Positions 7,270 through 45,149 of a stretch of 64,000 bases of DNA are shown here, piece by piece (the first letter of the stretch is position 1; the number at the start of each line of letters is the position of its first letter). Below the pieces are notes generated by a model. The model did not search any database, had not been told where the DNA came from, and saw only the letters and a list, made by a program, of their open reading frames with translations. Origin of the DNA: an uncultured Desulfobacteraceae bacterium (GTDB lineage: Bacteria > Desulfobacterota > Desulfobacteria > Desulfobacterales > UBA5852); assembly GCA_913060875.1 (NCBI GenBank), contig CAJXSL010000007.1, forward strand, positions 1 to 64,000. Reading direction: 5' to 3'. Position numbers and translations under genes: made by a program.

Positions 7270-7622
7270 GGGGGCGAAACGGGTTCGACGGGGGCAAAGA
7301 AGCATTGGCTGCATGTCGAGCTTTCCTGTCCGCTCGTAAAACGACGGGAAACTAAATATAATCGCAGACGATTATAACTACGCCGTAGCTGCTTAAGCTA
7401 CCGTCCTTCCAGGCTACTCCTGCGGGCCTGGAAAGGGCGTCGACTAGCGGGATAGCAACGGTTAATGCCTGATGTAACCGAAGCGAAACTCTAATCAGGA
7501 TAAGTCTGAGGGGACCTGGCCCGGAAGGGCCCCGATGGCTGACACTCAAAGTTCGGGATAAGCATGTAGATGCCCATGTGGAATGTTTTCGGACGCGGGT
7601 TCGACTCCCGCCGCCTCCACCA
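7270..7622 (+). ncRNA. ssrA: Transfer-messenger RNA (tmRNA)
   Basis: One-piece tmRNA of 353 nt. The 5' end GGGGGCG pairs with CGCCTCC before the encoded ACCA at 7619-7622, and the T-arm GGGTTCGACTCCC is at 7597-7609. The tag reading frame starts at the resume codon GCA (7364) and encodes ADDYNYAVAA, then TAA at 7394-7396, a normal protease tag. It works with SmpB, encoded at 4525, to release stalled ribosomes. The 3' end is a classic island insertion site and is repeated at 20110. Confidence 0.96.
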
Positions 7623-20549: not shown

Positions 20550-20903
20550 TTAAGCAGAGCATGCACAAGAATGAACTGACACACGGCCTCGTCTTGTTTT
20601 TTGAGCCGGCCGCCTAGTAAAACGATCTCGTATAGTAATGTCCACTTCCTGATTCAGGGCAGAATGCCAATGAAGGAGCTTTTCAACGGAAACGAGATCA
20701 AGTTGTCCGCGAAGGAGCTTGGACACGGTAGGTTGATCAGTGCCAACGCGTTCGGCCACTTCTTTTTGAGTAAGGCTGTGGAGTTTCATGAGGCGTTGGA
20801 GATTGACCACCAGTTTTGCCTTGACGGATAGTTCTTCGGCATCTTGGAGGCCGATGTCAGCAAAAACATTGCCAGAACTGGGGGTAGTTTTGATTTTGCT
20901 CAT
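20550..20903 (-). CDS. HigA-like XRE antitoxin
   Basis: 117 residues from the ATG at 20903, which follows AAGGAG. The HTH is LQRLMKLHSLTQKEVAERVG then QPTVSKLLRG, and the C-terminal segment (VSVEKLLHWHSALNQEVDITI) is typical of the HigA-type family that follows a Gp49-like toxin. The toxin gene ends 4 bases upstream, in the reverse-order arrangement (toxin first) usual for higBA. The last about 25 residues are Arg-rich and unusual, possibly from a change where the island end joined. Confidence 0.82.
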   Translation of the reverse strand: MSKIKTTPSSGNVFADIGLQDAEELSVKAKLVVNLQRLMKLHSLTQKEVAERVGTDQPTVSKLLRGQLDLVSVEKLLHWHSALNQEVDITIRDRFTRRPAQKTRRGRVSVHSCACSA

Positions 20904-20907
20904 CTCA

Positions 20908-21261
20908 TCACTCCTTCTCAACTTCTTTATCCCTTTGACGAGCCTCTTTAAGCCTTTGTTTTATGAGGTTCGTATCCCTCGGTGGAGTTTTTTTCCCGGA
21001 CTTTGATTTCTTCTGGAAGCAGTGCAAAACATAAACCGCGTTTTTCAACTTCGCTATGTACACTGCCCTGTAAGTTTCTTTGTCGAAAGGTTGGACTATC
21101 TCGAAAACGCCACTCGTTCCCTTTCCTTTCAAAGGTTTCGCATTAAGCGGAACCTCTCCGCACTGGACTGAATATAGAGCATAGCCTATAGGTCTAGCTG
21201 CTCCAGGCGGAAACCCCTTTAGATTGTCCAGAGAATCTCCCATCCACTCCAATGTTTTCAT
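20908..21261 (-). CDS. HigB/Gp49-like toxin (RelE superfamily)
   Basis: 117 residues with the layout of phage-derived Gp49-like toxins: LEWMGDSLDNLKGFPPGAARPIGYALY, then GVFEIVQPFDKETYRAVYIAKLKNAVYVLHCFQKKSKSGKKTP, which holds the catalytic basic patch of RelE-type mRNA interferases. It precedes the HTH antitoxin, the usual higBA order. A palindrome just upstream (21269-21288) fits an autoregulatory operator. Confidence 0.85.
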   Translation of the reverse strand: MKTLEWMGDSLDNLKGFPPGAARPIGYALYSVQCGEVPLNAKPLKGKGTSGVFEIVQPFDKETYRAVYIAKLKNAVYVLHCFQKKSKSGKKTPPRDTNLIKQRLKEARQRDKEVEKE

Positions 21262-21288: not shown

Positions 21289-21357
21289 CGTGTCAACCGG
21301 AATGTTGGGGGTTTATGGGCAGGCCGCAAGCTCGATTGCCACACACACACCGAGGGC

Positions 21358-21390
21358 ACAAAAAAGGCAGAGCCTCAAAGAGGCTCTGCC
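21358..21390 (-). terminator. Rho-independent terminator of small-peptide locus A
   Basis: Read on the minus strand: stem GGCAGAGCCT, loop CTTTG, stem AGGCTCTGCC (21366-21390), followed by a T run. The same terminator ends locus B at 44584. Confidence 0.9.
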
Positions 21391-21490
21391 AGTGTGGTCC
21401 ATTTCAGGTTCTGCTATGCGTAGGCTGTTCAGATCAGTGCGATATGGTCGGTATTCTGTTGCCTATGGTATTGAAGCTCTGCCTTACTGA

Positions 21491-21625
21491 TTAACCGGCG
21501 ACATCGATTCCCGGGTCACAACCCAGATTGGGATCGGGTTTCTCGCATTCTTTGTTGGCTTCTCGGGTGTCAACGTGGCCTTCGGTATCATCTTTGGTGT
21601 AGTCTTGAACTTTGTCATCACTCAT
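21491..21625 (-). CDS. Small acidic Cys peptide, locus A (44 residues)
   Basis: A 44-residue gene of a type I do not recognise, with a strong ribosome site (ACAAGGAG, 7 bases to ATG). It starts MSDDKVQDYTKDD and ends PDPNLGCDPGIDVAG. A paralogue of identical length is at 44826 and shares GHVDTR, N-x-EC, PDP-x-LGCD-x-GIDVAG. No signal peptide or membrane segment. Two conserved Cys residues and the conserved tail could mark a modified peptide precursor or a small metal- or protein-binding factor; neither is shown. It is followed by about 100 bases of conserved noncoding sequence and a terminator, so it forms its own transcript. Confidence 0.75.
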   Translation of the reverse strand: MSDDKVQDYTKDDTEGHVDTREANKECEKPDPNLGCDPGIDVAG

Positions 21626-22081
21626 TGTGTTTCTCCTTGTAATTTGTTTGGTTGTAGTTGCTGTCGTTCTTACCTAAAAAGTTAGCCACAGAACCGAATC
21701 TGGCAATAGGCGATAAATAGGGTATTAATGATAGGTTATAACTATTATATTGGGCGGGCGGGGTTAAAGGGAAAACGGGGGCAAGTCTACGCTTGACCTT
21801 GATGACAATAGCACCAGCGATCTATTGTGCACCTGTCTAGCTTTTGAGCTTTAATAAATTCAACGAAACAGGGTGTAAGGTCAGATGCAGGCTTGACCCG
21901 TTTCATGACGCGATAGTGTCATTTTCTAACATTTCCAATAGGTTCCAGTGTTGCATCGCGCCCCCTTTCGTTGGTCTTGGAGGCTGCGATATCATAGCCG
22001 TGTAGCAGAACCGGCCACGATTGCTATAGAATCCTCATTTACCGGATACTGAGAAACCTTTGATCAGATGGACCAAGAACC
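21626..22081. other. Upstream region of peptide locus A plus repeat family 3
   Basis: Nearest the peptide, the leader contains CCTATTGCCAGATTCGGTTC, which recurs upstream of locus B at about 45020-45050 (CCTATTGCCAGATCCGGTTC), marking a conserved promoter or leader. Farther out, 21777-21873 is a copy of repeat family 3. No other gene seen. Confidence 0.6.
21777..21873. repeat. Repeat family 3, copy 1
   Basis: GGGGGCAAGTCTACGCTTGACCTT... ACCAGCGATCTATTGTGCAC... TTTTGAGCTTTAATAAATTCAAC matches 24611-24706 with scattered changes. Nature unknown; perhaps a decayed element or shared gene flank. Confidence 0.6.
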
Positions 22082-22750
22082 ATGTGCGGACGCTTCGTCG
22101 GATATCGGCCCATTGAAACCCTTCAGGACCATTTCCCGATTGATCGGGTTGAGGCCACCATTGCGCCGAATTTCAACATTGCCCCCACCCAGAGGATAGC
22201 CGCCATCGTCCAGGAAGGTGATGAGAACGTCCTCAAATCGTTCCAGTGGGGGCTTGTCCCCTTCTGGGCCAAAGATCCCGCAATCGGTGTCCGGATGATC
22301 AATGCCCGGGCTGAAACCGTGGATTCGAAGCCTTCCTTCAGGAACGCATTCAAGAAACGCCGGTGCATAATCCCTGCCGATGGGTTTTATGAATGGACCG
22401 GGCCGAAAGGCAACAAGCAGCCGGTCTTTATCACACGGCCAAACGGTGAGCCTTTTGGATTCGCCGGACTGTGGGAGGTTTGGGACAACAAGGGCATGGC
22501 CGCCCAACCGCTTTATAGCGTTACGATCATCACAACCGAGGCCAGCCAGGCGATCAAGGATATTCATCACCGAATGCCGGTCATTTTGAAACCTGAAGCT
22601 TTCAGCGATTGGATGAATACCGGCACACCAACAGGCCCCCTCAAGGAAATCATCACGACCAGAATTTACAAAGACCTGGTTTTCAGGAGCGTGTCCAAGG
22701 CCGTAAACTCCACCAGGAACAATTCAGCGGATTTGATTGAAGGGGAATAG
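22082..22750 (+). CDS. SRAP/HMCES-family protein (YedK-like)
   Basis: Shields abasic sites in single-stranded DNA by forming a covalent link through its N-terminal Cys. 222 residues. Cys2 follows the initiator Met (MCGRF), the Asn lies in NFNIAPTQ, the Glu in DGFYEW and the His in IHHRMPVIL: all four active-site positions are present, so it should be functional. Start is fixed because Met removal must expose Cys2. Monocistronic; SOS-type control was not seen. It sits between two accessory regions rich in toxin-antitoxin genes. Confidence 0.93.
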   Translation: MCGRFVGYRPIETLQDHFPIDRVEATIAPNFNIAPTQRIAAIVQEGDENVLKSFQWGLVPFWAKDPAIGVRMINARAETVDSKPSFRNAFKKRRCIIPADGFYEWTGPKGNKQPVFITRPNGEPFGFAGLWEVWDNKGMAAQPLYSVTIITTEASQAIKDIHHRMPVILKPEAFSDWMNTGTPTGPLKEIITTRIYKDLVFRSVSKAVNSTRNNSADLIEGE

Positions 22751-44583: not shown

Positions 44584-44614
44584 AAAAAAGGCAGAGCCTC
44601 AAAGAGGCTCTGCC
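44584..44614 (-). terminator. Rho-independent terminator of small-peptide locus B
   Basis: Minus-strand stem GGCAGAGCCT, loop CTTTG, stem AGGCTCTGCC and a T run, identical to the one at locus A. Confidence 0.9.
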
Positions 44615-44710
44615 GGTGGGGTCCATTTCAGGTTCTGCTATGTTCAGGCTGTTCAGCTCAGTTCGGTAGGGTCATAATTGTGGTGCCTTTGGGATTGAAG
44701 CTCTGCCGTT
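44615..44710 (-). ncRNA. Conserved 3' untranslated segment of small-peptide loci (copy B)
   Basis: About 95 bases between the peptide genes and the terminator, with long blocks identical to 21391-21486 (for example TCCATTTCAGGTTCTGCTATG and GATTGAAGCTCTGCC on the plus strand). Both copies contain stops in all frames, so the conservation is not explained by coding. It may be a structured RNA or stability element. Confidence 0.45.
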
Positions 44711-44714
44711 TGTC

Positions 44715-44807
44715 TCAGACCTTGCAGGTCGCGTATTTGTTGATGTTCGCTGCACAGCTGTTGATGTAGTATCCAAGGATCGCTATCGTCAGGATCGTTC
44801 CTATCAT
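44715..44807 (-). CDS. 30-residue hydrophobic Cys peptide
   Basis: Begins MIGTILTIAILGYYINSCAA and ends NKYATCKV. A strong GGGAGGTGA ribosome site precedes the ATG, 18 bases after the stop of peptide B, so both are on one transcript. The first about 15 residues could span or enter the membrane; two Cys residues follow. No counterpart is visible in locus A. Function unknown: a toxin-like membrane peptide, a secreted peptide or a small membrane regulator are all possible. Confidence 0.6.
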   Translation of the reverse strand: MIGTILTIAILGYYINSCAANINKYATCKV

Positions 44808-44825: not shown

Positions 44826-44960
44826 TTATCCCGCCACATCGATGCCCATATCACAGCCCAGATGAGGATCGGGATTTTCACATTCGTGGTTGAAATGACG
44901 CGTATCCACGTGGCCTTCGTTATCGTCTTTGAAGTAGTCTTCGCTGCGTGTATTTTCCAT
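44826..44960 (-). CDS. Small acidic Cys peptide, locus B (44 residues)
   Basis: Paralogue of the peptide at 21491, same length. It begins MENTRSEDYFKDDNEGHVDTR and ends PDPHLGCDMGIDVAG; over the last 33 positions most residues agree, including both Cys. The ribosome site ACAAGGAG and the upstream word CCTATTGCCAGATCCGGTTC are also shared. Conservation concentrated in the coding region with similar leader and terminator shows that it is a real gene. Family not recognised. Confidence 0.75.
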   Translation of the reverse strand: MENTRSEDYFKDDNEGHVDTRHFNHECENPDPHLGCDMGIDVAG

Positions 44961-45149
44961 GGTGTGTCTCCTTGTGGTTGAGTATTTCTGATTGCTCACT
45001 TTCCTGACTGATAAGCTATGAATGGAACCGGATCTGGCAATAGGGGACTAATCGCAGATAAATAATAGGTCAAAACTATCAATAAAGAAGTGGCTATAGG
45101 GGGAAGGGATGTTCGGCGTTGTGACGGGCCGGCGCGGGCCGCTTTGCAT

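Follow-up and report, generated by a model that had tools for sequence, protein, structure and literature searches.

The closest described systems to the gene set considered here are photo-oxidative regulons, namely those of ChrR-SigmaE in Rhodobacter and Vibrio and of LitR/PplR in Pseudomonas, and genes of this set are light- or singlet-oxygen-responsive in these other bacteria (PMC7380195, PMC9758184, PMC5241685). In furan fatty acid synthesis, DUF1365 corresponds to UfaO and CMAS-like proteins to UfaM (PMC7380195). In Pseudomonas, light induces a region that comprises phrB, ufaM and the genes for an SDR and a FAD oxidoreductase (PMC9758184), and a CFA synthase and photolyases (phr) are upregulated in blue light in Vibrio (PMC5241685). 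Photolyase, CMAS/UfaM-like, DUF1365/UfaO-like, FAD oxidoreductase, SDR and lipocalin genes are common to these regulons and to the system described below. In contrast, the candidate regulator here is a PAS-LuxR protein, the commonest target is a microprotein, and the organisms are sulfate reducers and thus anaerobes.

Two further systems are comparable in part. The operator of OxyR resembles the palindromic box found here in its core sequence and its distance upstream of the promoter, whereas the regulator genes adjoining our loci are of the PAS-LuxR type and none of the non-family targets seen is a peroxide-defence gene. Small hydrophilic stress proteins such as CsbD and the hydrophilins are likewise short, acidic, hydrophilic, multi-copy and apparently stress-regulated, but show no sequence similarity to the microprotein (Pfam) and are not characterised by its invariant Cys pair, its GHxDTR motif or its C-terminal Gly.

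Little is known about how anaerobic sulfate reducers in sediments perceive light, oxygen and reactive oxygen and withstand them. In the present analysis, a multi-copy protein with no match in the family libraries searched appears to be the commonest target of a promoter type, which is also found upstream of defence genes of the light-damage type. This provides a candidate regulator, a precisely defined DNA site and a set of genes for study; it also adds a conserved family of microproteins whose invariant residues offer a starting point. With moderate confidence, we favour the explanation that the protein belongs to a photo-oxidative-type stress regulon, the regulator of which would be a PAS-LuxR protein.

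A conserved microprotein family of Desulfobacterales

We analysed a stretch of 64,000 nucleotides (the window) from an uncultured Desulfobacteraceae bacterium. Locus A encodes a protein of 44 aa, MSDDKVQDYTKDDTEGHVDTREANKECEKPDPNLGCDPGIDVAG, and locus B a paralogue of equal length with the same motifs, MENTRSEDYFKDDNEGHVDTRHFNHECENPDPHLGCDMGIDVAG (Table 1). The pattern GHVDT occurs twice in the window, compared to 0.01 occurrences expected by chance. The original prediction of a 44-codon gene with a strong ribosome-binding site, its own terminator and a paralogue of identical length sharing its motifs was borne out in each of these parts, and the conserved leader it had noted is real and corresponds to a palindromic operator with a sigma70-like promoter. 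Together with two more copies, loci A and B make up the four family genes of the genome, which is nearly complete (5.88 Mb in 30 contigs).

Table 1 Features of the two microprotein loci of the window. Coordinates refer to the window.
Feature	Locus	Position	Strand	Basis
Microprotein gene, 44 aa	A	21491..21625	-	ORF list, homologues, substitution pattern
Ribosome-binding site AGGAG	A	21633..21637	-	sequence
Palindromic operator-like box ATAGTTATAACCTAT	A	21731..21745	-	core pattern search
-35 element TTGCCA	A	21701..21706	-	sequence and fixed offset
-10 element TAACTT, 16-bp spacer	A	21679..21684	-	sequence; architecture alike across loci
3' RNA element GGCAGAGCTTC...AGGCAA	A	21459..21483	-	pattern searches
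Intrinsic terminator GGCAGAGCCTC-TTT-GAGGCTCTGCC-T6	A	21360..21390	-	perfect 11-bp hairpin
Microprotein gene, 44 aa	B	44826..44960	-	sequence, homologues, substitution pattern
Palindromic box ATAGTTTTGACCTAT	B	45065..45079	-	core pattern search
-35 element TTGCCA	B	45035..45040	-	sequence
-10 element TAGCTT	B	45013..45018	-	sequence
Second micro-gene, 30 aa, MIGTILTIAILGYYINSCAANINKYATCKV, RBS GGGAGGTG	B	44715..44807	-	sequence
3' RNA element GGCAGAGCTTC	B	44697..44707	-	sequence
Intrinsic terminator	B	44584..44614	-	sequence

Homologues are widespread outside this genome. They were found in 25 of 96 relatives and, within the order, in 65 of the 291 genomes sampled, with up to seven copies per genome. 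Nearly all of the 79 named or MAG loci with homologues belong to Desulfobacterales or unclassified deltaproteobacteria, the named hosts being Desulfosarcina, Desulfatitalea, Desulfobacula, Desulfospira, Desulfotignum, Desulfamplus, Desulfocicer and Olavius symbionts; one homologue-bearing contig labelled Bacteroidales may be a contamination. A phylum sample outside the order yielded no convincing homologue (two matches at E 0.005-0.008), and no family relatives were detected in the viral contigs and plasmids searched. The family had no match in profile searches of Pfam, NCBIfam and PHROGs and no meaningful match in the PDB profile search, where a likeness to a PET hydrolase was rejected as it comprised 19 residues at E~1. 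A literature search did not retrieve a description of the family, in line with the original statement that no such family was known. Judged from these searches, locus A is the founding sequence of an undescribed microprotein family of Desulfobacterales.

Comparison of locus A with its closest homologue, the counterpart in genome G003 (which carries seven family copies), revealed changes at 17 of 26 synonymous but only 7 of 106 nonsynonymous sites (dN 0.07, dS 1.5), and synonymous change was far above nonsynonymous change in all pairs tested. Substitutions strongly favour the amino-acid sequence, a pattern that places the family under strong purifying selection. By its homologues and substitution pattern, the microprotein gene of locus A is a real, conserved protein-coding gene for a Cys-containing product.

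Family members comprise 43-51 aa with two cysteines and are acidic, with a mean net charge of about -8. The motif GHxDTR..N..C...D..LGC..GIDVxG is almost invariant and runs to the C-terminus, and 15 columns are invariant in the alignment of 83 sequences (G16, H17, D19, T20, R21, N24, C27, D31, L34, G35, C36, G39, D41, V42 and G44). The ending DVxG is present in 91 of 92 sequences, x being mostly A or Q, and the C-terminal Gly is conserved. AlphaFold2 did not return a confident fold from the 83 sequences (mean pLDDT 68, pTM 0.27). The family was also compared with ubiquitin-like modifiers; its members end in DVxG and not in Gly-Gly, and a beta-grasp lacks confident fold support.

One promoter architecture shared with defence-type genes

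Lead copies of the family have one promoter architecture in common, in which the palindrome GRTAGNTTNNNMCTAYC is located exactly 40 nt 5' of the TTG-type -35 hexamer of a sigma70-like promoter. The box was scanned for by pattern searches of the window's own genome and of 1.3 Mb of fetched loci. The strict core ATAGNTNNNANCTAT occurs at four sites in the whole genome, each upstream of a family gene, while the reversed control pattern occurs at two. The box is present in 62 of 77 lead copies, and all 62 have the TTG at a distance of exactly 40 nt from the start of the box. None of 12 downstream tandem copies has a box, which is expected if the tandems are operons. Within the 1.3 Mb, the combination of box and TTG at +40 was detected 66 times at family genes and seven times elsewhere, compared to zero times in shuffled DNA. 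In Desulfosarcina widdelii and D. alkanivorans this combination precedes family genes, including one decayed copy, and a further box precedes the gene of a 395-aa methyltransferase.

Sites outside the family are located 5' of genes for the methyltransferase, a UfaD-like FAD oxidoreductase, a lipocalin-like protein and a diverged family member, and the FAD amine-oxidoreductase gene under the box adjoins DUF1365-CMAS genes. Light- or singlet-oxygen-type defence genes with the same box and offset thus occur in relatives. As this dedicated switch also precedes genes of the light- and oxygen-damage defence type, the microprotein is probably a stress-response protein rather than a precursor peptide. 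Neighbours of family loci include photolyase, CMAS with DUF1365, DUF1722/thiouracil desulfurase, SRPBCC-SDR, UvdE and Usp genes, of which those for photolyase, UvdE and Usp are close to several loci. This link is drawn from relatives, as in the window's own genome no family copy lies beside a PAS-LuxR gene or a photolyase cluster.

The SAM methyltransferase of about 395 aa was noted in relatives at L088, L198, L206-L209 and L213 and lies under the box in several genomes, some of them without the microprotein; the copy of the window's own genome is located at G000:C1:126848-128041. Its N-terminal region appears FKBP-like by eye, while Pfam reported methyltransferase domains only. Box scores of at least 12 were reached in 4 of 20 methyltransferase genes compared to 2 of 400 shuffles, and several weaker-scoring boxes keep the 40-nt offset, also in family-negative genomes. 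We rejected the enzyme as a dedicated partner of the microprotein: 19 of the 25 family-positive genomes encode it, but so do 19 of the 71 without the family.

A PAS-LuxR protein as candidate regulator

Nine family loci have a gene with PAS_4 and GerE (LuxR) domains nearby, and in five of them it lies immediately upstream. Orthologues of this gene and the family occur together in 17 genomes, the regulator alone in 7, the family alone in 8 and neither in 64 (Fisher p=6e-8, uncorrected for shared ancestry), so that 8 of 25 family-positive genomes are devoid of a clear PAS-LuxR orthologue. The regulator and methyltransferase genes are conserved as a pair, and in some genomes the box separates them. 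The window's own genome encodes PAS-LuxR proteins at G000:C16:106506-107363 and, as a second homologue, on C8, neither next to a family copy. Locus proximity, co-occurrence and this pair make the PAS-LuxR protein the best candidate, and it would most likely be the transcription factor that acts on the palindrome.

The main rival regulator is OxyR, since the box fits the OxyR motif. According to this explanation, OxyR or an OxyR-like activator of the LysR type would control the microprotein as part of a peroxide regulon and the palindrome would be an OxyR site. The core ATAGNTNNNANCTAT matches the published OxyR-type motif, and the distance of the box from the downstream start site, about 65-70 nt, is as for LysR-type activators. 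Yet the best matches to E. coli OxyR in the window's own genome are just 27-29% identical, one candidate has no redox cysteines, and an orthologue with the redox Cys pair was not found there. Another LysR-type candidate, which contains an in-frame TGA, is absent from G003 despite the seven family copies of that genome. Moreover, in the DNA examined the box did not precede any gene for catalase, peroxidase or OxyR. OxyR was therefore set aside for want of a good orthologue and because the TGA-containing gene has the wrong distribution, and we regard a peroxide regulon as unlikely.

The TGA-containing LysR-type gene, G000:C4:82690-83589 (L124 1501-2400), deserves mention in its own right. The codon is located near the position of OxyR Cys199 and is kept in four orthologues (58-76% identity), while none of the homologues at 39-46% identity has an in-frame TGA. 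The gene probably encodes a selenocysteine-containing LysR regulator.

A conserved element at the 3' end

Downstream of the coding unit lies the element GGCAGAGCUUC-N-AGGCAA, which in the window's own genome is confined to family loci; at some loci it separates tandem copies or belongs to the 5' leader. The 11-mer of the element is complementary to the 3' arm of the terminator, reaching into the loop, and the predicted optimum favours long-range pairing of the two in about half of the cases. Contiguous pairs between element and terminator numbered 349 within loci versus 326 +/- 4.5 between loci (0/5000 swaps); as the swap control leaves relatedness in, this fit is suggestive. Concerted differences of element and terminator were observed, for example, in L053, L060, L087/L102 and L099. 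The conserved element may thus act as a bistable 3' RNA. An Rfam search of positions 21340-21800 gave chance-level matches only.

These observations could also mean that the main conserved entity is a dual-function transcript, a regulatory RNA whose 3' end is bistable, and that the protein is secondary. The restriction of the element to family loci and its better pairing within than between loci would be in line with such a role, but amino-acid conservation is far above DNA conservation, the element is missing from several copies and the swap test carries no correction for relatedness. We consider this explanation improbable.

The precursor-peptide proposal, the second micro-gene and tandem copies

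The original prediction took the conserved tail and variable N-terminus as signs of a precursor peptide or a small binding protein. A binding function is conceivable. The alignment agrees with the description but not with the precursor interpretation, because the would-be core is the C-terminal half, which is nearly invariant order-wide, and the N-terminus is the variable part. A RiPP precursor or signalling peptide would fit a small, Cys-containing product with a conserved C-terminal tail that is encoded in multiple and tandem copies, and the SAM methyltransferase with the same promoter type could be seen as its enzyme. This enzyme, as described above, is also present in family-negative genomes, and modification enzymes, for which the original prediction had suggested a check near other copies, were not recurrent: a Pfam scan of 116 neighbour proteins (148 families) revealed no recurrent RiPP enzyme, with Radical_SAM in 3 of 116 and LuxR/GerE as the commonest with 5. 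Genes for maturation, protease or export functions did not recur beside the copies either. As the regulation furthermore points toward a stress regulon, we think a precursor or signalling peptide very improbable.

Tandem family copies about 200 nt apart are common, and decayed copies were found in L065 (near 7100) and L201. Locus B and roughly 25 further loci contain an ORF of 26-31 codons with its own ribosome-binding site 3' of the family gene, which is absent at locus A. These ORFs start with MIG, end in C(K/R)h and contain a stretch of hydrophobic residues as well as an IN(R/S)C motif. Tandem copies and a few ORFs arising by chance are among the 33 matches listed automatically, and about three quarters of the analysed family copies are without a membrane-type peptide. 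The second peptide of locus B is of membrane type with two cysteines and the conserved pattern MIG..LT....GY(F/Y)IN.C...C(K/R)h; it had no Pfam match.

A toxin-antitoxin or other mobile selfish module, made up of the hydrophilic protein and the tiny membrane peptide, would be consistent with the predicted co-transcription of the 26-31-aa peptide in many loci, the multiple and decayed copies and a HigBA-like pair adjoining locus A, but is highly improbable given that most copies lack the peptide, that viral contigs and plasmids had no match and that the activator-type promoter is common to chromosomal stress genes.

Proposed role of the microprotein

In the favoured stress regulon, a transcription factor, most likely PAS-LuxR, would bind the palindrome about 65-70 nt 5' of the start site and turn on all family copies together. 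The lipocalin gene, the FKBP-like/SAM methyltransferase gene and the operon of the furan-fatty-acid-type FAD oxidoreductase would be activated along with them. In the least certain step, the microprotein would act stoichiometrically in the cytosol, with the invariant tail C..LGC(D/N)xGIDVxG-COOH either serving as a Cys/His site responsive to redox state or metals or docking with its free C-terminus on a partner. As AlphaFold2 gave no confident fold, this biochemical step is based on residue conservation. In many genomes the co-transcribed, Cys-containing membrane-type peptide of 26-31 aa may assist the microprotein, and the bistable 3' RNA element may also tune output.

The regulon, the second micro-gene at locus B and the 3' RNA element go beyond the original prediction. 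A tentative and rather doubtful extension would combine them into a new class of stress microprotein, whose production would be the dominant, amplified response of a photo-oxidative regulon under PAS-LuxR control in sulfate-reducing anaerobes; it would act together with the Cys-containing membrane peptide and a conserved, functional bistable 3' RNA.

Other genes of the window

An SRAP gene (22082-22750), recognised by eye, adjoins locus A, and an SRAP gene was likewise found by Pfam at the counterpart L033. Downstream of locus A lies a toxin-antitoxin pair of HigB-like and HigA-like genes (20550-21261, minus strand; by eye). A tmRNA gene (Rfam RF00023) is located at positions 7270-7622 of the plus strand.
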